64,000 nt of DNA from Cerasicoccus sp. TK19100 (GTDB taxonomy: Bacteria > Verrucomicrobiota > Verrucomicrobiia > Opitutales > Cerasicoccaceae), in NCBI RefSeq assembly GCF_027257155.1, contig NZ_JAPWDU010000002.1, positions 620,001-684,000 of the forward strand, given 5' to 3'. The notes beneath the pieces are model-generated. The model saw nothing but the letters and a program-made list of their open reading frames with translations, ran no database searches and had not been told where the DNA came from. The position numbers were made by a program, and so were the translations under genes. Numbering within the stretch: position 1 is the first letter of the stretch; the number at the start of each line of letters is the position of its first letter. Positions 7,532-61,065 of the stretch are shown here, piece by piece.

Positions 7532-10500
7532 TTAGTGGGTTTCCGCGACGAATCGGAAAAACAGCCCGTCACCGAGTGCACCATCCGGCGGGATCAGCAG
7601 CAGGTTGCCACTTTGGGGGTCACTTAATAATTCATAGCCAGTGGTTAAAGTCCACGAGCCGAATGCGGGTCTGCTGGCGACAACGGTCCAAGACTCCGGA
7701 GACAAATCTTCAGACGCTTCCCATGCGATCGCCACATTGTTCAGCGGCTCGGCGATGCGTAGGTTAATGCCGCCCTGCCCTGGCTCAATGCGGACAATCG
7801 CGATCACGCCCTCGCTAGTCGCGTTAGACTGCAAGGTGTATTCCAGCAGATTGGCCAGACCATCACGGTCGTAGTCGCTATCAGGGTCAGCTGCGGTCGT
7901 GCCCGACTCCGCGCCAAAGGTTTCGTCGCGCCAAAGTTGATACGCGGACAGTTGCTGAATCCAGTCGCGGATGATTGCCTGGTCATTCAAGTCCATCGGA
8001 TCATTCGGGCGCATGCGATCGCCAACCTGCGGGTGATCGGAATTGATTTTTTCCATCAGATAGCTGCGCTCGGGGGAGCCAGGCTCAACCAACTTGATGC
8101 CGGGTGCCTCGACACTGAGTTTGTTAACCAACTCCGTGAAGCTCGCCGAGGGCTGCAAGTCAAGACCACCGCTGTTGGTGGCAATGTCGTTGTGACAGCC
8201 GATGCAATTCGCAGTTAGAATCGGTTGCACATCGTTGATGAAGCTAACATTCGGCGTCTCGGCGATACCAGAAAGATCATCAGTATCGGTTCCTCCATCG
8301 AAAAGCCCCAAAGTAATGACACGCTCTGCCAAGTCAGCGTCGTTCACCGTTTCGGTGACCAAGATGCGCCCATAAACACTCGCGCCGCGATCACCCGTTG
8401 TGTCGAGGGTGAACTCAGCATCACCATCACCTGAAGCAATCGGAAAATAGAAGTAACCGAGGTCATCCGCGTTCAGCCGGTGGTTAACACCCGTCGGCGC
8501 AAATGGCGTAGCCGGAAGAAAATCGCGCGCTCCAGGAACCGGATAGGGAACGCGGTTAGCGCCGGTGCTAAGCCCGATGTCAACCGCTGCCGGATCACCG
8601 CGCGTATCCAACACCCGTCCGGCCAGAGCCGTATCTGAAAAGTACAAATCCAGGTCGACATCGGCACCGTTATCCAAATCAACGGCGAAGCCCCGCGTAA
8701 TCGCAGCCAAGCCTTGCGGCAGGCCATCATCGGCGACGATCACCATCGCTGGCCCGGTCAGCGCCGCATTGATCGCCAAGTTGATGCTAGCGCCCGCAGG
8801 GATCGTCAGCGCATTGGAATCCGTCCCGCTGCCACCGGTGATTGCGGCTGGCGTTACGGCATCGGCTTGGAAGAATGTCAACTCAATGTCGTCGCTCATC
8901 GTATTGCCCGACCCGCTACTGGCGTCAAAAATATCGCCACTAATCGTAATGCTAGGTGACTCAAAAACTGAAATCTCCTGCTCAGCGGTATCGGTTAGCG
9001 TGAGCGCATTCGACACGGTCAGGCTCACCGAATAAACACCCGCATTCGCGAACGTATGTTGTGGACTTGGCTGGGTGGAAGTGGAGCCATCATCAAAATC
9101 CCATGCCCATGAAGCTACAGTGGAATCAGGTGCCGTCGACTGATCAGTGAAGCTGACAGTTAACGGTGCTGCGCCACTGTTGGCTGAGGCCGTAAAGCTT
9201 GCCGTCGGTGGCTCACCTCCTTGAAAACGAATGCGCCCGATTTCATAACCGTTGCCCAAGGAATCGCCCTGATTGGAATCCGTATAGTAAAGCGCACCAT
9301 CGGGCCCCAGCTCGAAGGCGACCATGCTCGCTGGTGGGTTGGTCAGAAAAGCACCGCCATTGTCCGCCGCAATCGGTGTCAAAGTATCTAGCTCGGCCCC
9401 GGTCAGTGTCCAACGACGGATTTCCTGGCCATAGCGCGCCTGGTAAATCGTCGGGCCTTCCGGTGCAAAGGGTCCATCGCGCACAATGATTAGCCCCGTT
9501 GCGGAAGGGCTGTGAGTGCGCATAACGGTTCTCTTTCCATCGGCGGACGAGGTCGTAAACTCATCCGGCCAACCACCATCGGCACCCTTTTCGATGCGCA
9601 CCAAGCGGTCCGTGCCATCACCGTTTTCCGAAAGATACATGACGTCGTCAATTGGGGCGGCAGGATCGAACACAAAGCGAAACGCGTTGCGAAAACCGTG
9701 CGCCCAAATGCGTGACCTGACCGAGTTTGGATTACCATCGTAGAATGGATTGTCCGCTAAGCCCAGGCCTGTGGCCGGATCTACTCGGAGAATCTTTCCG
9801 TTGTAGAGGTCCATGTCATCAACGACGTAGCGGTTACCATCGTCGCCAAGCATCACGTAAAGCGCATAGGGATCGCTTGGGTGAAACTGGAGATCGCCTG
9901 CGTTGTGTACGTTGGTTTCGTTGGGCAGTTCGGAGAGTAAAATAACTTCCGAGCCCGATACCATTTGCGTGAAAGTTTCATCGACCGTAATGCGCGACAG
10001 GCGCTGATCATTCGAGGTCGAGTAGAACAGGTAAATGTAGCGATTGTTGGCGAAATCCGGATCCAGGCGCATGCCCAGCAAACCACGCTCGCCATTGGTA
10101 TTCACCACCGAAGATATATCCGCGACGACAACCGGCGGCGTAAAATCTCCACCGCCGCCACCAAGCTGTTGACGCACCATGCTGGCGCTTTCCCATTCGA
10201 CTTCGAGGTTCTCGCCACCTCCGTTTTCGAAGAACTCAACGACAACGGAGTGTTGCCCCGCTGATAAATTAATCGTGCCCTGCTCTTCGTTGTTGCCATG
10301 CAAACCGTCGTTATCGACGACCTCGACACCGTCGACCAATAAGCGACTACCGTCATCCGAGGTTGTGTAGAAAGTGTAGTCACCAGCGATGGAGATATCC
10401 AATGTCGCAGTAAAACGGAATGCAAAGTTGTCGTCCTGCAAACGATTCTCGAGGTCGAAGCCGGTTGCCGTTCCACTTGCGATTGGCGTGAGGCTGTCAA

Positions 10501-51682: not shown

Positions 51683-52093
51683 ATGCTAAAACTGTCCGCC
51701 AGAGTCACGATCCCCGCGCACGAAATCCAGTGGAACATGGTGCGTGCGCAGGGTCCCGGTGGGCAGCACGTTAATAAAACCTCGACGGCAGTGCAGCTGT
51801 TTTTCGACATAAAGGCGTCCTCCCTGCCCGACTATTACAAGGAGCGGCTGCTCAAGCTGAATGACTACCGCATTACCGATGGCGGCAAGGTCGTCATCAA
51901 AGTACAGGACTCACGCTCACAGGAAGCGAATCGGCATCTGGCGCTGGAGCGACTGCGGTTATTCATCATGGACGCAATGAAGGTCGAAAAAAAGCGTCGC
52001 CCGACCAAGCCAACCCGCGGCTCGCAGAAGCGCCGGATCGAGAAGAAAAAGCAACAAGGCGAAAAGAAGGCGCTTCGCCGCAAGCTGGATTAA
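51683..52093 (+). CDS. arfB: Alternative ribosome-rescue factor ArfB (YaeJ-type)
   Basis: A 136-aa class I release-factor-like peptidyl-tRNA hydrolase that rescues stalled ribosomes. The GGQ motif (Gly26-Gly27-Gln28) lies in RAQGPGGQHVNKTSTAVQL, and the basic C-terminal tail (KKRRPTKPTRGSQKRRIEKKKQQGEKKALRRKLD in sections) is that needed for binding the mRNA channel. Domain 2 of normal release factors is absent. It overlaps the convergent response regulator gene by 4 bp. Confidence 0.95.
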   Translation: MLKLSARVTIPAHEIQWNMVRAQGPGGQHVNKTSTAVQLFFDIKASSLPDYYKERLLKLNDYRITDGGKVVIKVQDSRSQEANRHLALERLRLFIMDAMKVEKKRRPTKPTRGSQKRRIEKKKQQGEKKALRRKLD

Positions 52094-52737
52094 TTATCAA
52101 TTTGGGCGCTCTCGTCGATGTCCCAAAACCCTTGAGCAATACCATAGCGCATGAGCTCGGTAGTGGCGTGCAGCTCAAGTTTTTTCATGATGTTACGCCG
52201 ATGCCAGCGCACCGTCTTATCACTTAGATTGATCATCACACCGATGGTAGAGTCGTCCAAGCCCTTCGAAAATAATGGCAGCAGCTCCAGTTCCTTGTTG
52301 CTTAATATTTTGTGAAACGCTAAGGGATTCTTGCGTATCTCATCCCTGACTTGCGAGAAGGACTCCGAGAAATACGGTTCGCCGCGAGAAATCGCATCCA
52401 ACGCATCCATGACAGTTTCCAGCTCATCATTGAACTTATTGACGTATCCGTGCACGCCGGATTTCAACAATCGAAAAACTGTTACACTATCCAGCTTGGC
52501 AGATAGGGCTAAAACCCTTAATGATGACTGCTCCTCAATTAAAGTTTCCGCAACCGATATCCCATCCGGCTCAGGAATCCGAATATCCAACAACAGAATT
52601 TCAGGTTGAGTCGCACGGCATACGTCCAATGCTTCCTGACCACTTCCAGCCTCCCCCACGACCTCATATTTTTCGCTGCACATCTTAACGATCAACTGGC
52701 GGAATAAACTCTGGTCCTCAACAACGACAACTCTCAT
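52090..52737 (-). CDS. NarL/FixJ-type response regulator
   Basis: A 215-aa two-component regulator. The receiver (about 1-120) has the acidic pair Glu7-Asp8, phospho-acceptor Asp51 in LLLDIRIP, and a Lys at the KF position (VNKFND). The LuxR-type helix-turn-helix is at about 142-205 (LSNKELELLPLFSKGLDDSTIGVMINLSDKTVRWHRRNIMKKL). No kinase adjoins it, but the hybrid kinase at 56685 lacks an output domain, so the two are plausible partners. It is divergent from the TonB-dependent receptor across 67 bp and likely controls it. Confidence 0.9.
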   Translation of the reverse strand: MRVVVVEDQSLFRQLIVKMCSEKYEVVGEAGSGQEALDVCRATQPEILLLDIRIPEPDGISVAETLIEEQSSLRVLALSAKLDSVTVFRLLKSGVHGYVNKFNDELETVMDALDAISRGEPYFSESFSQVRDEIRKNPLAFHKILSNKELELLPLFSKGLDDSTIGVMINLSDKTVRWHRRNIMKKLELHATTELMRYGIAQGFWDIDESAQIDN

Positions 52738-52804
52738 ATGCGCTTAATATGGTGTTAACCTTAGACGGTTACAAGAAAGAGCGCTATTTTTTCTCGTTAC
52801 TGCA

Positions 52805-55537
52805 ATGATTAAAAATTTTAACCTGCTAATCCGTATTTCAGCACTGCTGCCTCTCGTTGTGGGGCATTCAGGGCTACAAGGGCAGGAAGAATCCCCCGAC
52901 TACAGTGATTCAACCGAAGTCGATACACTTGAGCCAGTATACATGTTTGGGTCTCTTTTTACCCCTCATCAAGTCGACACTAAAGAGCCGATTACATTTC
53001 TATCCCCTGAAGACATAGAGTTGATGGGAGTTCAACGTCCCATCGAAGCCTTGCGCCTCCAACCGATGATGTTCGGTGCCATGAATACTGAAAATGACAG
53101 CAATGGCGGCACCGGATCGGCCTCGCCCAACATTCATGGCCTCGGCACGCTCCGCACATTAAACTTGATCAACGGACGGCGCGCTGGTGGCAACAGCGCC
53201 TTCAACCTGCAGCCTGGCGGCTTCGCCAACTACAACTTGATACCACAGGCTGCGATTGCCGGTATGGAAATCCTCCCCGAATCGGCGAGCACCACGTATG
53301 GCTCTGACGCCATAGCCGGCGCGATCAATGTGGACCTGATACGACGTTTTGAAGGAGTGCAGGTGTCCGGCCTTTACGGCGATACCACATCCGGCGGTGG
53401 CCAAACCCAACAGTATTCGCTCACCGGTGGCTTCTACCTCGACGAAGACACACACCTTACCCTCCTGGGAAGCTTTTACGATCAGCAGGTCATCTGGGCC
53501 AGAGACCGGAGCCTCTCTTCCACGACCGATTTCCGCTCCCGTGGGGGCACCAATCGCGGCAGCAGCACTTTCTCCGGGCGCGCAAATCTTCGCGTTGGCG
53601 GAAATCCGGTTCAGAGCGTCCTCGCACCCGGCGTCGATTTTCCCACATCCGGTGCAAGCTACGTCCCCTACAATCAGAGCACCGACGCATTTAACTACAA
53701 CCAGTATGCGCCGGTCATTCCCGCGTTGGAGATTGCCAATGGATACGCCGCGCTAGAGCACGAGTTGTCAGAACAGATAACGCTCTATGGCGACTTCCTC
53801 TACGCATACAGCAATCAAGACAACGGCCTGGCACCGGCCCCCTGGAGCGCATCGAATGCCCCTGGGCTGCTCACAGCGGTTCGCGCTAGCCCACATACGC
53901 CCGTGGCACCGACGGATGTGCTTGATGTTAGCTACCGCAATTTTGAAGAAGGTAACCTCCTGACGCAGTTCACGCGAAACGCCTTTCGCGTAGTGGGTGG
54001 CGCACGCGGGATTGTCGACGATCGCTGGGAATGGGACAGCGCGTTACTCTATACTCAAACCGATTTTAAAGCCAACATCAGCGGTATCTCCGACGCCAGG
54101 CTACTCATCCCCCATATCAATAGCGGGCTCTTCAACCCCTATGCGCGATCCGTCACGGGTGTGAATGGTGGCATTGCCTTTGATAACGCCACTGCGCTGA
54201 ACGCCGCTTCAATTAAGGCTCGAGACGAGTTCTACGAGAATCTGTTTTCCTATGACGCCACCGTTTCCGGTGAAGTCTTTAAACTTCCGGCAGGCAGTCT
54301 CACCAGCGCCGTCGGGGCAGAGATACGTTATGAAAGCATTGACGCCACCCCGGACCCGATCTGGGGAACCCGGCAAAACCTGGGGGGAACGGGATACGCC
54401 AGCCCGTTTTCCGGAAAGCGCGAAGTCTTTGCCTTGTTTAATGAAAACCGCATTCCGCTCATTTCCAGCGAGCAGAAGATTACTGGCATCCACCAGTTGG
54501 ACCTCAGCATCGGGCTGCGCTACGAAAATTTCTCCGATCAGGGCGACGATCCCATCACCAACCTGCAGGCCAATAACCGCTACGACAACTTTTCCTGGGA
54601 GGCCGCCATTCAGTTAAAGCCGATTGAGAGTGTCACGCTACGCGGTTCCTACAGCACTGGTTTCCGTGCCCCCACCTTGTTTGAATCCTACGCCAGCGAT
54701 GTTTTCGACTTTCCTATTTTGGTGGACCCAACCGGTGCCACTCCTCCCGGCACACCAATCCCAACACTGGTCCGAGGCAATCCCAACCTAGACCCGGAGA
54801 CCTCGCAGAGCTGGAATGCCTCCGCCGAATGGCAACCGGAACCTGTGCCCGGCCTCACGCTTCGCGCCACCTACTACTATGTAAATGTAGACGATGCTAT
54901 CGCCAATGGCGCACAATTCACCCTCGATAACGATCCCTCCAATGTCATTCGTCGGCCGGACGGAACCGTGGCTCTGGTTAACTCCAAATTTTTCAATGCC
55001 TCCAGCCTGACCACCCAAGGCATGGACTACACCATCGAGTATGAACGCCCATTGAGCACCGCAGTAAGCATGGTCACCACGCTGAGCGTGAACCAAGTTA
55101 TTTCGTACGAAGCGGTCGTGCCTGGCGTGGGAAACATCGACTTCGCTGGCAACTATATTGACAAGCGCTCCAATAATCTGAGCCCGGGCGCGATCCCAAA
55201 GTGGCGCGGTCTATACACGCTGTTTTTCTTTGTTTATGACGCTTCCCTTGGCGCTACGGTGCAATACATCGGCTCCTACAACGATGACTCAAGCTTTACC
55301 GCCGGTAACCAGCCGCGACGGGTGTCCGATTACGCAACACTCAACTTGGTAGCAACCTATGAGTTCAAGGATAGCGGCAGTGCCCTTCTCAACGGAAGCA
55401 CCGTTGCCATAGGGGTAGATAATGTCTTTAACAGCAGCCCCCCATTTGCCGCCGGTGCGTTTGCCGACGGCTACGACACGTCACTCTACTCGATTCAAAA
55501 CCGCTTCATCTACGGATCGATCAGTAAAAAGTTCTAA
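52805..55537 (+). CDS. TonB-dependent outer-membrane receptor
   Basis: A 910-aa outer-membrane receptor. After a signal peptide (ending near LQGQ, residue 27) comes a short linker that may hold the TonB box (TEVDTLEPVYMFG), the plug domain (about 60-180: IRPIEALRLQP-like block, ATYGSDAIAGAINVDL-type motif) and a 22-strand barrel ending in FIYGSISKKF with terminal Phe. It lacks the SusC N-terminal extension, and no SusD follows, so it is a stand-alone TBDR of the siderophore/peptide type. It is divergent from the response regulator and convergent with the YcaO gene (16 bp between stops). Its ligand may be the putative modified peptide or its metal complex (inference). Confidence 0.93.
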   Translation: MIKNFNLLIRISALLPLVVGHSGLQGQEESPDYSDSTEVDTLEPVYMFGSLFTPHQVDTKEPITFLSPEDIELMGVQRPIEALRLQPMMFGAMNTENDSNGGTGSASPNIHGLGTLRTLNLINGRRAGGNSAFNLQPGGFANYNLIPQAAIAGMEILPESASTTYGSDAIAGAINVDLIRRFEGVQVSGLYGDTTSGGGQTQQYSLTGGFYLDEDTHLTLLGSFYDQQVIWARDRSLSSTTDFRSRGGTNRGSSTFSGRANLRVGGNPVQSVLAPGVDFPTSGASYVPYNQSTDAFNYNQYAPVIPALEIANGYAALEHELSEQITLYGDFLYAYSNQDNGLAPAPWSASNAPGLLTAVRASPHTPVAPTDVLDVSYRNFEEGNLLTQFTRNAFRVVGGARGIVDDRWEWDSALLYTQTDFKANISGISDARLLIPHINSGLFNPYARSVTGVNGGIAFDNATALNAASIKARDEFYENLFSYDATVSGEVFKLPAGSLTSAVGAEIRYESIDATPDPIWGTRQNLGGTGYASPFSGKREVFALFNENRIPLISSEQKITGIHQLDLSIGLRYENFSDQGDDPITNLQANNRYDNFSWEAAIQLKPIESVTLRGSYSTGFRAPTLFESYASDVFDFPILVDPTGATPPGTPIPTLVRGNPNLDPETSQSWNASAEWQPEPVPGLTLRATYYYVNVDDAIANGAQFTLDNDPSNVIRRPDGTVALVNSKFFNASSLTTQGMDYTIEYERPLSTAVSMVTTLSVNQVISYEAVVPGVGNIDFAGNYIDKRSNNLSPGAIPKWRGLYTLFFFVYDASLGATVQYIGSYNDDSSFTAGNQPRRVSDYATLNLVATYEFKDSGSALLNGSTVAIGVDNVFNSSPPFAAGAFADGYDTSLYSIQNRFIYGSISKKF

Positions 55538-55553
55538 CGGCAAGCGGACCCAA

Positions 55554-56441
55554 TTACCAAAAGAAATAGTCGGCTCTGTCGCTCGCGAATTCACGGTTCG
55601 GCTGCTCGTAGACCACGCGCCAAACGGTTACGTATTGATCCCAAGGCCCCTTAACCTTACGATCAATCAGGACTTTGGGCTTGGTGGACCATTTTCCAGC
55701 CGGACGGCTCTCCATGCGCTTGATTAATTCAGTGAACCCATCCGGACGCGAGTAGAACAATGCCCGCTTTTCAAACAAATGCTGCGACTGCTGGACATAT
55801 TCGAGATCAATGGACTCATGCTTTTGATAGTGTTCTTTAATGATGTTCGCCATGCGGTGCATTTCCACCGCTGCGCGCCAACAGGCATCCCCCTCTTTAT
55901 TCGCTAACCCGAAACCGTAAGTATAAAATCGCTCCTCCACGAATTGCCAGAGCAGTACCACCACATGGTCGCTGATAGGATTCTCCAATTGGATAGCGCG
56001 AATCCCTGGGTATGGATCGCCCAATGCAGTGTAGTCAAGATGCCCCTCCCACCACAGGATCAAAATATGGCGCTCAATTGCCTCACGCTCGGCCGACTGC
56101 CGGGCACCCTTGTCGAACAAACCTGGAAATGCGCCCATTCCATTTGAGGTCGGATCATAGTCAAAGCCGTATTCGCTGACGTTATTTAACTTACACTCAC
56201 GAAACGCCCACCTTTCCAGGGCTTCAGAGACGGCGCGAAACCTGGCAGTCGTCGGATCGGATGCGGAACCAACACCATCCGGATACGGCTGATCGATACG
56301 CAACTCATCCCGCAGGAAACCGGCTGCGGAATATTGCTCCCGTCCCAAAATTACCTCAATGCCGACCTCCATTGATTTGATCGGCCCTCCATCCTTGGAC
56401 ATGACATCCCGATATTTGATCGGGGCTAAGTTCATGTTCAT
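55554..56441 (-). CDS. Compact stand-alone YcaO-domain protein
   Basis: A 295-aa YcaO-superfamily protein, shorter than the usual 400 or more. The ATP-grasping motifs are present: SEALER (residues 72-77, from SDPTTARFRAVSEALERWAF), PTSNGMGA (97-104), REAIER (119-124) and GLANKEGDACWRAAVEMHRM. YcaO enzymes activate a peptide backbone amide with ATP to form azolines or thioamides in ribosomal peptides, or act on other amides. No partner E1-like protein, dehydrogenase or TfuA homologue is seen. The start is taken at ATG 56441 (another ATG at 56435); a TTG at 56489 would translate through a strong hairpin. A 39-codon ORF with Shine-Dalgarno sequence lies directly upstream on the same strand. Confidence 0.82.
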   Translation of the reverse strand: MNMNLAPIKYRDVMSKDGGPIKSMEVGIEVILGREQYSAAGFLRDELRIDQPYPDGVGSASDPTTARFRAVSEALERWAFRECKLNNVSEYGFDYDPTSNGMGAFPGLFDKGARQSAEREAIERHILILWWEGHLDYTALGDPYPGIRAIQLENPISDHVVVLLWQFVEERFYTYGFGLANKEGDACWRAAVEMHRMANIIKEHYQKHESIDLEYVQQSQHLFEKRALFYSRPDGFTELIKRMESRPAGKWSTKPKVLIDRKVKGPWDQYVTVWRVVYEQPNREFASDRADYFFW

Positions 56442-56456
56442 AGTATTAAACAATAA

Positions 56457-56487
56457 GCGTGCCGCTTCCGACAGGAAAGCGACACGC
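56457..56487 (-). terminator. Hairpin between the small ORF and the YcaO gene (attenuator candidate)
   Basis: On the minus strand GCGTGTCGCTTTCC, loop TGTC, GGAAGCGGCACGC with one mismatch and one bulge, followed by TTATTGTTTAAT. The tail is T-rich but interrupted, which suggests partial termination, leaving the small ORF transcribed more than YcaO. The YcaO ATG lies 16 bp beyond it. Confidence 0.6.
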
Positions 56488-56525
56488 AAAAAAGTAGTGA
56501 TTAGTATTGGGGAGATTTTTGATGA

Positions 56526-56645
56526 CTAAACTTCGCAGGGGTATGAGGGCCAAGCCTTCGTTTGCATTTTATCCATCGAAGACTGAGAGCGGAGCCCAAC
56601 GTTGTAAGTAATCGTTGAGATAATGGATACTATTGCTTTTTTCAT
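56526..56645 (-). CDS. 39-aa ORF, putative precursor peptide for the YcaO enzyme
   Basis: This ORF is too short for routine gene calls. It starts with ATG 56645, preceded by TAAGGA at the Shine-Dalgarno position, which is rare among neighbouring genes. The product begins MKKAIVSIISTITYNVGLR, has a Ser/Met-rich middle, and ends KAWPSYPCEV followed by TAG. The N-terminal part could be a leader and the C-terminal part, with Trp, Pro, Ser, Tyr and a single Cys37, a core. A YcaO target would be Cys37, Ser34 or a nearby backbone amide. The gene is followed by an attenuator-like hairpin and the YcaO gene, the usual order in ribosomal peptide clusters. It could instead be a chance ORF or a leader peptide; no homologue is known to me. 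Confidence 0.55.
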   Translation of the reverse strand: MKKAIVSIISTITYNVGLRSQSSMDKMQTKAWPSYPCEV

Positions 56646-56684
56646 GATTCCTTAGTTACTTGATATTAACGAAGTAATCCCGTT

Positions 56685-59600
56685 TTGAGATCACAACTTA
56701 GCATAATCGAAAACTTGAAAATACTCCAAGTATTCAAACCCCTCAAATTTGGGTGGTTCGCTTTAATATTATTCTATTCTGTAGTCTGTGTAGAAGCTGA
56801 GCTAATCGGCTCTCCTCCCATCAAAACTTACACGCCCAACGAATACTTGGCCAAAGGGCACAACTGGGCCTTCACCCAAGACCGCGAAGGCCGAATTTAC
56901 ACCGGAAACGACGCAGGAATACTGCAGTATGATGGTGTCAATTGGCGCTTATTTCCTCTGCCTTTCAGCATTTTCGACTTATTCTATGATTCTGAAAATC
57001 GTATCTGGGTGTCAGGTGTTAATGCGATGGGATATGTCGAGTTACAATCCGGAGTAATGTCGAAATACGTCCCGGTGGCAGAGGAAATCCACCAGGACTT
57101 AGGTGAGATTTGGAACATCACCAAAATAGGCAATACCATCTATGGCACCGCCCAAGGCAGCATCATCGAATATGATGGCAAAAACCTCACACGTCACAAC
57201 CTGCCAAACACGAACCGCCTGACCAGTGCAACTGATCAGCAAGCGCTCTACATCAGCCAAAATGAAATCGGCTTACATATCTTAAAACCCGGCGAAGAAA
57301 TGGTAACCATTACCGGGGGCAAAGCAGACGTTGCCAGGGTCCACTCTGAATTCATCTCCGCACAAGGCACACACATTTTTGCAACATTTCGGAACGGCTT
57401 GCTAGAGCTAAAGGACGACGCTCTCGTCCCTTGGAATCACGAGCTGCAAGAGCTGCTAAACGGAACGAACTGCTATAAATCGCTACAATTAGACGACGGC
57501 AGGATACTCATCGCAACCCACCAATCAGGCGTCTTGCTAATCTCTCCCGATGGCGAATCTTTAGGCCAAATTACCGAGGAAGACGGCCTGCTCAGTAACT
57601 TCGTCATCAACATGTTTCAGGATATGGACGGCTCGATTTGGATTGCGCATGAGATCGGTCTTAGCCTGCTCGACCTGCTTTCGCCTTACACCATTTTGAA
57701 TGAACGCAACGGCCTGGCCACGAATATTGTTTACAGCCTGGAACAACAGGATAACCGGCTTCTGGCTGGCACGGCAAATGGGTGCATGGAATTCGAACCA
57801 CCTACCGAAAATAACCTTAATGGCTCATGGAAGCTCTTGGGCGAGGAGAACTCGGGTATTTGGCACATCGCCAAGACATCTCGCGGTCCATTGATTGCAG
57901 AGAATGACGGCTTCGGTCTCCTTACCGAAAATCAGCTAAAGACGGTTCTCTCCCTTGGCCATGAAGGCATCTATGCCACCACTATCACCCATAACGATCA
58001 GGAGTATATCCTGGCCACACAACGGCGCCAGTTGCATATTTGCCAATGGCAAGGCCAAGAGCTGCTGGTCCGTAAATCAATCGATGCCCCGGGCCCGCTC
58101 TGGACGATTGTTAACTTTGAAGATGAGGTCTATCTGGGCTCAGTGGCCAACGGCGTGCTGAGAGTAAGCCAAGAGGCGTTCTTCTCCGATGAGCCTGTAT
58201 TACTGGATAGCTTTCTGGACAGCCTCACGAATGCGCAATCATGGGGCTACTTCATCAAGCTTGCGCGCGGCGTTGTACTCCTGACTAATTCTGGCCTCCA
58301 TTACCGGGCCAACAACAGCGACGACTGGCAACGCGTCCCGGGCAGCCCCAAAACATATGGGGCCAATCCGTATGCCGTCAATTTTTACCAAAGCTCAGAT
58401 TCGAAGCTGTGGATCAGCTACCTAGAGGACAAAGGCTATCAGTTTGCTCAAGTGAACTGGTCGGAAGACTCCCTCCGACCATTAGTGAGCCGCATACCCG
58501 TGGAAGGCTTGAAAGAGCTCAACGAAATCCACAGCCTACTTGTCGATGAAGATACTTCGGTTGCTTGGTTTGGCGGCAGTGGTGGGATCGTGCGCGAAAG
58601 GAGCGTGGGTAGCAAACCAGACTATTCAGAACGCGCTCCCATCATCACCGACTCCGAAATCGCTGGGCAAAGCACCGGCACTCGCAACGAATTTAAATTC
58701 CCGGTAAAGCTGGCCACATTTAACTTTGCGCTACCATACTACGGTGCCAAGGAGGTTTCCTATCGCACACGCATGGCGGGCCAAAGTGACGACTGGAGCC
58801 AAGCGACGACCAACACCTTCAAAGAGTTCACAAACTTGGCCGAGGGCGAGTATGCATTCCAGGTCCAGGCCCTACTCGATGGCGTTCCCCTGCCCTCTAT
58901 CGCGAGTCATTCATTCCGCATCCTCCCCCCTTGGTATCGCACTTGGGGCGCGTTTATTCTTTATCTACTTGGTGCGATTGCCTTGGCCTACTTGCTGGTT
59001 TATTTCCGCACCCGCAGCCTGCAACGAGCCAATGTGATGCTGGAAGAAGCCGTCCGCAACCGGACCGTCGAATTGGAAAAAACCAACGTCAGGCTCGCCC
59101 AGGCCAATACCGCAAAAAACCGCTTCCTGGCAAATGTCAGCCATGAGATTCGCAACCCCATGAATGGGATCGTGGGCCTGGCGCATCTACTGCTCGAAGA
59201 TGGCCGGCCAGCCGAAAAGCGGCGACTCACCCACCTGCTCAGTACATCAGAGCACCTGAAGGTGCTGCTTGATGGCTTATTGGATTTTGCCGCAATCGAG
59301 AATGGACAGGTCCGCCTGCAAAAGACGACCTTTTCCCTGGAGACGCTCTTGGACGAGCTCGAATCACTACACCAGCGCCTCGCACTAGACAAAGGCATCG
59401 AGCTAATCGTTGAAAAACGCTTTGAAAGTTGCCCCGAACTTTATGGAGACGTGGGTAAGCTACGGCAAATCCTCTACAATCTAACCTCCAACGCCATCAA
59501 GTTTACCGGCGAAGGCAGCGTCACCGTTCGTGCCTTTACCCAACACGATAAGAGCCACAACAAAACCGAGCTGTATTTCGAAATCGAAGACACCGGCAAT

Positions 59601-60560
59601 GGCATTCGCCCGGAAGACCAAAAGCGCATCTTTGAGCAATTCAATCGGGGCGCGAATACCAATTCGCAAATCAAAGGCATCGGCTTGGGCCTATCCATCG
59701 CGGATCGCCTGGCCAAGCTGCTCGACGGAGCCTTGGAGCTAGATACCCAATACGACAATGGGGCGCGCTTCACTCTGCGCCTTCAGTTACCCTTTGCCGA
59801 CCAGAGCACCTCACCCGAGAACGGGGACGACTCCAGTTGCGCAGAAAGCCTGAAGGGTTTGCAGGCTTTGGTTATTGAAGATGAGTCATATAACCAAATC
59901 GTGGTCGAAGGACTACTCAAACGCGAATCCGTAAAAGTGACGCTGGCGAGCTCTGCCGAAGAAGGCATCAAGGAATTCGTCAAGCACAACTGGGACTTCG
60001 TGCTGGTGGATATCAACCTGCCCGGAGCCAGCGGTATTGAATTCGCACGCATGGTTCGCGATGCCGCTGAAAAAGCAGAAACACCGCTGATCGCGATGAG
60101 CGCCTATGTTGCCGACTTTGACCGGGAGGAAATGATCAAGGCCGGCATCACCGGTTTCGTCCCCAAACCATTTACACCGGAAGAGCTCACCAATGCCATC
60201 CAGGCTAAAACCCAATCAGCCTTACCTAGCCTGACGAAAGCGAAGAAGGATAAGGTATCGCTCATGAAATACATTGCCGGGGATGACGCCAACAGGCTCA
60301 AAGATCTTCAAAAAGAATTACACGAGAGCCTTCAGAGTTATTGCGAGAAATTGACCAAAGCCATGCAGTCCAACGACCTTGAGAGCGCCCGATTGCTCCT
60401 CCACGACATGGCACCGCTGATCCGGCTAACACAGGACGACCACCTGATCCACTTGACCGAAACCCTACATAATCTCGTGCACGAGGGTGACTTTAAAGGA
60501 TTCGAGCAGGTTTTTGCTGAATTCGTATCCGAGTGCGGCAAACTGGCACCGGAGGAGTAA
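56685..60560 (+). CDS. Hybrid sensor histidine kinase with beta-propeller sensor, receiver and Hpt-like domain
   Basis: A 1291-aa membrane sensor. After an N-terminal signal helix (about 22-37) comes a large exported sensor with propeller repeats (TQDREGRIYTGNDAGILQYDG; MFQDMDGSIWIAHEIGLSLLD) and a Y_Y_Y domain (about 690-745). One membrane helix (about 755-775) leads to a coiled coil, HisKA with His820 in ANVSHEIRNPMNG, HATPase (TSNAIKFTGEG; DTGNGIRPEDQKRIFEQF; GIGLGLSIADRLAKLL), a receiver with Asp1109 in LVDINLPGASG, and an Hpt-like bundle (LLLHDMAPLIRL). There is no DNA-binding domain, unlike classical hybrid two-component sugar sensors, so a separate regulator such as 52090 is needed. 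The start is TTG 56685 (or TTG 56715); no early ATG. It is divergent from the small ORF with only 40 bp between. Confidence 0.88.
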   Translation: MRSQLSIIENLKILQVFKPLKFGWFALILFYSVVCVEAELIGSPPIKTYTPNEYLAKGHNWAFTQDREGRIYTGNDAGILQYDGVNWRLFPLPFSIFDLFYDSENRIWVSGVNAMGYVELQSGVMSKYVPVAEEIHQDLGEIWNITKIGNTIYGTAQGSIIEYDGKNLTRHNLPNTNRLTSATDQQALYISQNEIGLHILKPGEEMVTITGGKADVARVHSEFISAQGTHIFATFRNGLLELKDDALVPWNHELQELLNGTNCYKSLQLDDGRILIATHQSGVLLISPDGESLGQITEEDGLLSNFVINMFQDMDGSIWIAHEIGLSLLDLLSPYTILNERNGLATNIVYSLEQQDNRLLAGTANGCMEFEPPTENNLNGSWKLLGEENSGIWHIAKTSRGPLIAENDGFGLLTENQLKTVLSLGHEGIYATTITHNDQEYILATQRRQLHICQWQGQELLVRKSIDAPGPLWTIVNFEDEVYLGSVANGVLRVSQEAFFSDEPVLLDSFLDSLTNAQSWGYFIKLARGVVLLTNSGLHYRANNSDDWQRVPGSPKTYGANPYAVNFYQSSDSKLWISYLEDKGYQFAQVNWSEDSLRPLVSRIPVEGLKELNEIHSLLVDEDTSVAWFGGSGGIVRERSVGSKPDYSERAPIITDSEIAGQSTGTRNEFKFPVKLATFNFALPYYGAKEVSYRTRMAGQSDDWSQATTNTFKEFTNLAEGEYAFQVQALLDGVPLPSIASHSFRILPPWYRTWGAFILYLLGAIALAYLLVYFRTRSLQRANVMLEEAVRNRTVELEKTNVRLAQANTAKNRFLANVSHEIRNPMNGIVGLAHLLLEDGRPAEKRRLTHLLSTSEHLKVLLDGLLDFAAIENGQVRLQKTTFSLETLLDELESLHQRLALDKGIELIVEKRFESCPELYGDVGKLRQILYNLTSNAIKFTGEGSVTVRAFTQHDKSHNKTELYFEIEDTGNGIRPEDQKRIFEQFNRGANTNSQIKGIGLGLSIADRLAKLLDGALELDTQYDNGARFTLRLQLPFADQSTSPENGDDSSCAESLKGLQALVIEDESYNQIVVEGLLKRESVKVTLASSAEEGIKEFVKHNWDFVLVDINLPGASGIEFARMVRDAAEKAETPLIAMSAYVADFDREEMIKAGITGFVPKPFTPEELTNAIQAKTQSALPSLTKAKKDKVSLMKYIAGDDANRLKDLQKELHESLQSYCEKLTKAMQSNDLESARLLLHDMAPLIRLTQDDHLIHLTETLHNLVHEGDFKGFEQVFAEFVSECGKLAPEE

Positions 60561-60627: not shown

Positions 60628-61065
60628 TCAAATAACGTACCGTTTAATCAACTGAGCAACTTCGTCAATGCCCTCGGCGATCCAGATAACGCCGCGCGTC
60701 ATTAAATCATCGCCCTTGCTAATTTGCGAATAGTCCAGCACCCAAAGAGGCTCAACTGTCTCTAAGCGAATACGATATGCCGAAAGAAGATGGATCAGTT
60801 TATCAGCCTGATCCAGGTTCGCCATATAACCTTGCTGATCCGAAGGCATGATTCGCGAGACCCAATCATCTAGCGTCTTAATACCTTGGAAACAATTAAC
60901 ATAAGCCGACCCATCTGGCTGAAAATGGAAACGACGATAATCTGCATCTAATTCATAGGTAACAGACTCTAGTATTCCTTCTGACTGGAATATCTGGCGA
61001 TGCTTATAAAATTCCATCATTTGAACGATTGACCCTATAATCTCGCGCCAACGTTCATATAACAA
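60628..61065 (-). CDS. Small protein of unknown function
   Basis: A 145-aa cytoplasmic protein beginning at TTG 61065 or at one of the two ATG codons at 61020 and 61017. It is mixed alpha/beta in appearance, with ESVTYELDADYRRFHFQPDGSAYVNCF as a beta-like core and IDEVAQLIKRYVI as a C-terminal helix. I do not recognise a family. It is convergent with the hybrid kinase gene (67 bp between stops). Base composition is AT-richer than the genes to its right. A link to the YcaO unit is possible only by position. Confidence 0.55.
   Translation of the reverse strand: MLYERWREIIGSIVQMMEFYKHRQIFQSEGILESVTYELDADYRRFHFQPDGSAYVNCFQGIKTLDDWVSRIMPSDQQGYMANLDQADKLIHLLSAYRIRLETVEPLWVLDYSQISKGDDLMTRGVIWIAEGIDEVAQLIKRYVI

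Follow-up and report, generated by a model that had tools for sequence, protein, structure and literature searches.

A compact YcaO enzyme, a short precursor peptide and phosphorelay genes at a conserved locus of Verrucomicrobiota

The window, a 64,000-nucleotide stretch from a genome of Cerasicoccus (Verrucomicrobiota; nearest named relatives C. frondis, C. maritimus and C. arenae), carries a compact YcaO gene with a 39-codon open reading frame (ORF) upstream, together with genes for a TonB-dependent receptor, a NarL-type response regulator and a hybrid histidine kinase (Table 1). The original prediction had listed exactly this set, and ORF and Pfam analysis found all of its members present. 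The stop codon of the short ORF lies 84 nt from the YcaO gene on the same strand. The kinase gene, whose called start is the TTG at 56685, is divergent from the short ORF, the receptor gene is convergent with the YcaO gene, and the regulator gene is in turn divergent from the receptor gene. A search of a plasmid collection returned no match.

Table 1. Genes and sequence features of the YcaO locus, in window coordinates.
Feature	Coordinates	Strand	Remarks
NarL/LuxR-type response regulator, 215 aa, proposed kinase partner	52090..52737	(-)	Pfam REC and GerE
TonB-dependent receptor, accessory, lineage-specific	52805..55537	(+)	Pfam
YcaO enzyme, compact and divergent, 295 aa	56441..55554	(-)	Stop codon 55554-55556; Pfam YcaO
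Precursor peptide gene, 39 aa MKKAIVSIISTITYNVGLRSQSSMDKMQTKAWPSYPCEV	56645..56526	(-)	CTAAGGAATC 5' of ATG
Predicted core AWPSYPCEV of the precursor	56529..56555	(-)	C-terminal end; residues putatively modified
Candidate cis-regulatory element TGATCTCAAAACGGGATT	56676..56693	(-)	Between precursor and kinase genes
Hybrid histidine kinase, 1291 aa	56685..60560	(+)	Pfam two-component-regulator propeller, Y_Y_Y, HisKA, HATPase, REC; Hpt-like tail
Hpt-like C-terminal domain of the kinase	60222..60557	(+)	Invariant His

The match of the window enzyme to the Pfam YcaO model (E = 5.7e-5, 23 bits) falls slightly under the curated cut-off of 25.7 bits, and 26 of 30 family members match this model (PF02624) individually, with a best E value of 9e-10. 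When the 30 members are aligned, the SEAxERW-type and ExxER (xxEAxER) motifs are invariant, the Glu-rich ExxER of the ATP/Mg site occurring twice; S72, E73, E76 and E123 are invariant, and R77 and E120 nearly so. Other YcaO proteins of the phylum (L145 and L150) possess both motifs in a comparable setting, as in 'AAAIGEAWERIAF' and 'TTNGLACGHKFDVALDRAVREVVERDSLMLVWL' of L150 versus 'FRAVSEALERWAF' and 'TSNGMGAFPGLFDKGARQSAEREAIERHILILWW' of the window enzyme. Because the profile matches extend to 26/30 members and the motifs are common to other YcaOs of the phylum, we regard the window protein, on sequence grounds, as a member of a compact, divergent YcaO family. Profile-profile alignment of the family to further YcaO proteins of Verrucomicrobiota was partial and limited to the two motifs, owing to a poor automatic choice of template ORFs. 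An AlphaFold model built on a 4-sequence alignment reached a pLDDT of 43.5, its Foldseek matches being noise, and searches of the PDB with the enzyme, by sequence and by profile, yielded no match. The absence of an E1-like partner, already remarked upon in the prediction, was borne out: neither this protein nor Ocin-ThiF, traits of LAP/TOMM clusters, occurs among the window neighbours scanned, and the kinase and regulator are the only genes conserved within 8 kb across loci. Likewise, TfuA, a trait of thioamidated RiPPs, was not found adjoining YcaO, and there is no conserved second biosynthetic gene.

The deep search for this enzyme family was confined to Verrucomicrobiota and covered 273 genomes of the same order, a sample of 384 genomes from the class and another of 387 from the phylum. 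The family occurs in 27/273 genomes of the order, and all matches in the class and phylum samples fall within that order too; among sampled genomes, it is thus found only in a single order. The carriers include marine and soil bacteria. Genus g79 carries the gene in 11 of 13 genomes, one copy of which is decayed, with several in-frame stops (L128, contig C1 of G848, about 7538-8155). At L042, L045 and L054, a protein of 143-166 aa is encoded directly 3' of YcaO on the same strand (a receiver-domain protein at L045), and the YcaO sub-family of these loci lacks the usual YFFW C-terminus.

The original prediction was staked on conservation of the small ORF in relatives that have the YcaO gene. 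Exact translation revealed a small same-strand ORF upstream of YcaO in every one of the 38 intact YcaO loci that make up our locus set. Most of the encoded peptides span 50-62 residues and begin with MK or MN, followed by a hydrophobic stretch and an [AVTS]-x-A site preceding A, E, D or Q (e.g. MNSLNRLVLGFVSSLLLAAGFTRAADRLDPM... at L043), and the leaders in most relatives are usually signal-peptide-like, of the Sec type as judged from these features. The lack of a dedicated exporter, which the prediction had counted as a peculiarity, is therefore less of an obstacle for most relatives, where a Sec-type signal peptide serving as precursor leader offers a simple route. The leaders of Cerasicoccaceae and of genus g35 display no clear signal peptidase site, which makes the export route uncertain in these two groups. 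The C-terminal cores are short, hypervariable and rich in Cys, Ser and Thr, often with PC or C (TAPCTMPCE, GTLPCG, SCALPCGNG); Cys itself is scarce, frequently a single residue and sometimes none (L061, L034, L053). A conserved leader joined to a variable core, in a gene beside a modifying enzyme, is the trait of a RiPP locus, and it was recognized in 38/38 loci and in alignments of close pairs. Four genomes contain tandem core repeats, namely DTCTWPCED three times at L035, GCAQLPCYHRDF three times at L038 and L048, and AFCDTVCNF four times at L051; precursors with three or four cores arranged in this way may each give rise to several peptides. The Cerasicoccaceae precursors are shorter than those of most relatives (39-40 aa in 5/5 loci) and all five end in P[ST]x[PG][CT]E[VI], so that two core positions are invariably occupied by Ser, Thr or Cys. 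These are the residues on which cyclizing YcaOs act.

Taken by itself, the window ORF comprises just 39 codons next to a weakly matching YcaO, and it could be a chance ORF or a regulatory leader, with the enzyme modifying some other protein. Beyond the conservation in 38/38 loci, four Cerasicoccus genomes preserve precursor length, with pN/pS of 0.35-0.55 in frame versus 0.82-2.14 in the other two frames, an in-frame signature by which we consider the 39-aa ORF to be coding. In addition, a scan of ORFs up to about 400 nt upstream with a simple signal-peptide score detected a signal-peptide-like ATG ORF at 30/38 YcaO genes and at 7/182 other genes of the same loci; since the loci are related by descent, these figures represent a contrast and not a probability from independent trials. 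Together with the cores repeated in tandem in four genomes, this evidence renders a chance or regulatory ORF scarcely credible. Chance-ORF and pseudogene readings were ruled out on the conservation, the coding signature and the upstream scan.

The hybrid kinase is a constant neighbor of the precursor gene, divergently adjoining it in all 37 loci with sufficient contig, one of them split by a frameshift. Automatic detection accounted for 28 of the first 30 loci, the remaining two being L058, where the kinase is two ORFs with an apparent frameshift, and L054, which is cut by the contig end; 8/8 further loci also possess the kinase. These proteins range from 1220 to 1387 residues. The prediction had the hybrid kinase right and overlooked its Hpt-like tail, in which a His is conserved in 28/28 aligned kinases. 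Its AHRLLGH-like setting is typical of Hpt domains. Pfam support for Hpt is weak, as the tail of the relative at L044 matches with E = 0.0034, under the cut-off, and the window kinase tail has no Hpt match. The parts of a multistep phosphorelay are accordingly present as HisKA, HATPase, REC and a separate regulator by Pfam, and as the Hpt-like tail by its invariant His and weak Pfam match. Hybrid two-component systems of Bacteroides (HTCS) with Reg_prop/Y_Y_Y sensors also have a periplasmic propeller fused to kinase and receiver. The kinase described here resembles them in this fusion of propeller sensor, kinase and receiver, and differs in that it lacks a DNA-binding domain, carries the Hpt-like tail, is accompanied by a separate NarL-type regulator, and adjoins a peptide gene rather than glycan-use genes. 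In a tree of 52 kinase domains, 36 YcaO-linked kinases group with the kinase of G049, with the L098 kinase intruding and 14 unlinked kinases outside. The L098 kinase (8290-12351 on contig C59 of G003) is the sole member of the clade without a YcaO neighbor. Pairwise distances of YcaO and kinase correlate with r = 0.92 (36 loci), and the sequences thus point to one old association of kinase and YcaO that has been inherited as a unit. Mean identity across loci is 19% for the sensor, 37% for the kinase and 39% for YcaO, the sensor evolving much faster than the other two.

Most of the first 30 loci also contain a NarL-type regulator gene. Three Cerasicoccaceae without a nearby regulator encode an orthologue elsewhere in the genome, with identities of 87% (C. 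frondis), 86% (C. maritimus) and 57% (G083); other regulators in these genomes reach at most about 39%. An orthologue of the TonB receptor adjoins the regulator in G094, G104, G069 and G083, even where both lie away from the YcaO locus, and this regulator-paired receptor is 59-74% identical in the Cerasicoccaceae with an unlinked regulator. As the pairing with the receptor persists when the regulator is unlinked, the two form the stable pair in Cerasicoccaceae, and their place beside YcaO in the window and C. arenae is a matter of position only. Kinase, regulator and receptor occur as a trio, with YcaO and precursor, in G033; G049 has kept the three genes and has neither precursor nor YcaO. 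The G049 case (L136, 8400-9900 on contig C100) retains the receiver side while the signal side is missing. The receptor accompanies the regulator in Cerasicoccaceae and one other genus and is absent from most loci, for which reason we rejected it as a general requirement; it is a companion of the regulator in certain lineages only. The self-contained system that had been predicted, with receptor, regulator and kinase expected to co-occur, consequently holds in a narrower form: precursor, YcaO and phosphorelay constitute a well-supported self-contained unit (38/38 loci, the kinase always of the same kind and the regulator mostly present), from which the receptor drops out.

Partial NCBIfam matches of the TonB receptor are to heme and siderophore receptors, and Sec leaders, described as rare among bacterial RiPPs, are a feature of bufferins and other MNIO RiPPs (PMC12452194). 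The precursors at the YcaO loci share with those of bufferins a RiPP-type architecture, a Sec-type signal peptide and Cys-containing cores (PMC12452194), and the peptide might accordingly be a bufferin- or methanobactin-like metal buffer or metallophore under a metal-responsive kinase, with the Cerasicoccus receptor mediating re-uptake. We judge this improbable. MNIO and the DUF2063 partner, the traits of bufferins, are absent among the window neighbours, and a YcaO in their place is the sole enzyme conserved beside the precursor; moreover, the cores are Cys-poor and highly variable, unlike a conserved metal site, and most loci lack the receptor. The conserved sensor kinase and regulator are a further difference from bufferins.

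Many loci contain a palindrome between the divergent genes with the 7-2-7 layout of NarL sites, including TACCTTAATTCAGGTA (L036), TACCTAGATCTAGGTA (L039), TACCGGAATTCCGGTA (L037, L043), CACCTAATTTAAGGTG (L046) and CACCTTAATTCAGGTA (L055). In genus g79, 9/10 loci have CACCTAGATTCAGG between -111 and -115 relative to the precursor start, and it is kept within the divergent block described below. Matches to TACCT-N6-AGGTA at 8/10 positions or better occur in 17/38 precursor promoters versus 70/2610 control windows, and at 9/10 or better in 6/38 versus 4/2610, a contrast that is somewhat favourable because the consensus was derived from the same promoters. The regulator gene of G028, which lies on a contig other than that of the YcaO locus, is preceded at a distance of about 50 nt by this palindrome (TACCTAAATTTAGGTA), linking the regulator to the site. 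The palindrome is also found at non-promoter sites. In genus g79, ACCTAAATTTAGGT palindromes lie between genes outside the system, some of them convergent (L160-L168, L175), and these might represent hairpins or repeats and not operators. A genome-wide regulon based on the palindrome was dropped, since matches beyond the system are scattered and partly outside promoters. The Cerasicoccus element at 56676-56693 differs from the palindrome and overlaps the TTG called as the kinase start. It is nearly identical, and equally distant from the precursor, in three Cerasicoccus loci, with one copy in the window, and its Gibbs score (15.2) is slightly higher than that of shuffles (13.5-14.0); we treat it as a candidate cis-regulatory site.

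In genus g79, L056 (G195) and L057 (G201) form a closely related pair. Here the DNA is ~90% identical on both sides of a block of about 2.7 kb and only ~50% identical within it, and this block takes in the kinase sensor half, the precursor and the initial YcaO codons. At the protein level, the kinase is 95% and the sensor 38% identical, YcaO residues 1-62 are 49% identical versus 92% for the rest, and the precursor cores are unrelated. Two control kinases of the same build were compared between G195 and G201: one has 86% identity in the sensor and 90% in the kinase, and the other, which has no precursor, has 29% and 93%, respectively. The latter is found at L131/L132 (G195:C1:3243500-3251000 and G201:C12:1093500-1101000). 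Covariation of sensor and peptide is seen in L056/L057, but sensor replacement, which on these comparisons may be common among such hybrid kinases, is not diagnostic by itself, and we downgraded sensor/kinase divergence as proof of a pheromone. The L056/L057 locus is peculiar in having precursor and YcaO N-terminus in one block with the sensor. L038 and L048 call for further caution, as their cores are nearly identical although the sensors are only 73% identical.

These comparisons bear directly on the main rival to a signalling role, in which kinase and regulator sense another ligand (a glycan, stress or a metal) and the YcaO peptide is not that ligand but a regulated product, a small antibacterial or other effector that is secreted. 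These genomes encode many propeller/Y_Y_Y hybrid kinases, most of them without a precursor, which together with the sensor swap in the precursor-less control and the retention of kinase and regulator without the peptide in G049 is what an effector would lead one to expect. Conversely, the YcaO-linked kinase clade corresponds almost one-to-one with the precursor gene, the cores are hypervariable while the leaders are not, sensor and precursor diverge as a single block in L056/L057, and no immunity gene or other further gene is conserved in the neighbourhood. On balance, we consider an effector under a kinase with another ligand unlikely, if clearly less so than a metal buffer.

Building on the gene set, its conservation and co-inheritance, the operator-like element and the way sensor and precursor have diverged together in the L056/L057 pair, we propose, with a probability of roughly 0.6, that a peptide signal, modified by YcaO and exported via Sec, is produced by the locus and read by the adjacent kinase. 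The small ORF would encode a precursor with an N-terminal leader (a Sec signal peptide in most relatives) and a short variable C-terminal core bearing Cys, Thr or Ser, and the stand-alone YcaO would use ATP to activate a backbone amide in the core, giving a ring, an amidine or a thioamide. The peptide would then leave the cytoplasm via Sec and be cleaved, and the periplasmic propeller domain of the kinase would sense it. Phosphate would pass along a His-Asp-His(Hpt)-Asp route to the NarL-type regulator, which would bind the palindrome between the divergent genes and control precursor and YcaO. In Cerasicoccus, the regulator-paired TonB receptor may serve for re-uptake of the peptide or for its output. 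A further extension, to which we give even odds, would make this a new form of quorum sensing in Verrucomicrobiota, based on YcaO-modified, Sec-exported hypervariable pheromones and fast-evolving propeller kinases, with mutually exclusive communication types arising by exchange of the sensor-precursor-YcaO block.

Among known systems, the best reading by analogy is that the locus would work like ComQXPA of Bacillus, in which variation resides in the C-terminus of ComX and the N-terminal domain of ComP (PMC4008528), without being a member of that family. The likeness comprises a modifying enzyme, a short precursor with a variable C-terminus, a LuxR-type regulator and a variable N-terminal kinase sensor, variation being concentrated in signal and sensor as L056/L057 mirrors; it is one of functional pattern rather than of established homology of precursor or sensor. 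Differences include a YcaO in place of the ComQ isoprenyl transferase, the Gram-negative host, the Sec-type leader, the divergent gene order, and a hybrid kinase with propeller sensor, REC and Hpt-like tail. The stand-alone YcaOs of bottromycin biosynthesis form a thiazoline or macroamidine without a partner, and the loci of bottromycin and streptamidine also place a stand-alone YcaO beside a short precursor that gene callers miss (PMC8442711). The present locus departs from these in its small YcaO (about 295 aa), the lack of any other conserved tailoring gene, the signal-peptide-like leader and the dedicated phosphorelay. Each part is of a known kind, and the combination, along with a Sec-type leader on a YcaO precursor, seems to be new; in the open-access literature, no description of such a locus was found, Verrucomicrobiota included. 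With a precursor of 39-60 codons and a YcaO under the Pfam cut-off, it is readily overlooked. Peptide signalling in Gram-negative bacteria is little known, and should the proposal hold, the RiPPs would gain a family with a leader resembling an ordinary Sec signal peptide, cell-cell signalling would join the functions of YcaO enzymes, and about 40 natural peptide-sensor pairs would be available for the study of how specificity evolves.

Finally, a 145-aa ORF with a very weak PAS-like match lies at the 3' end of the kinase gene in the window (60628-61065, minus strand), and a homologue occupies the equivalent place in C. arenae (L062).
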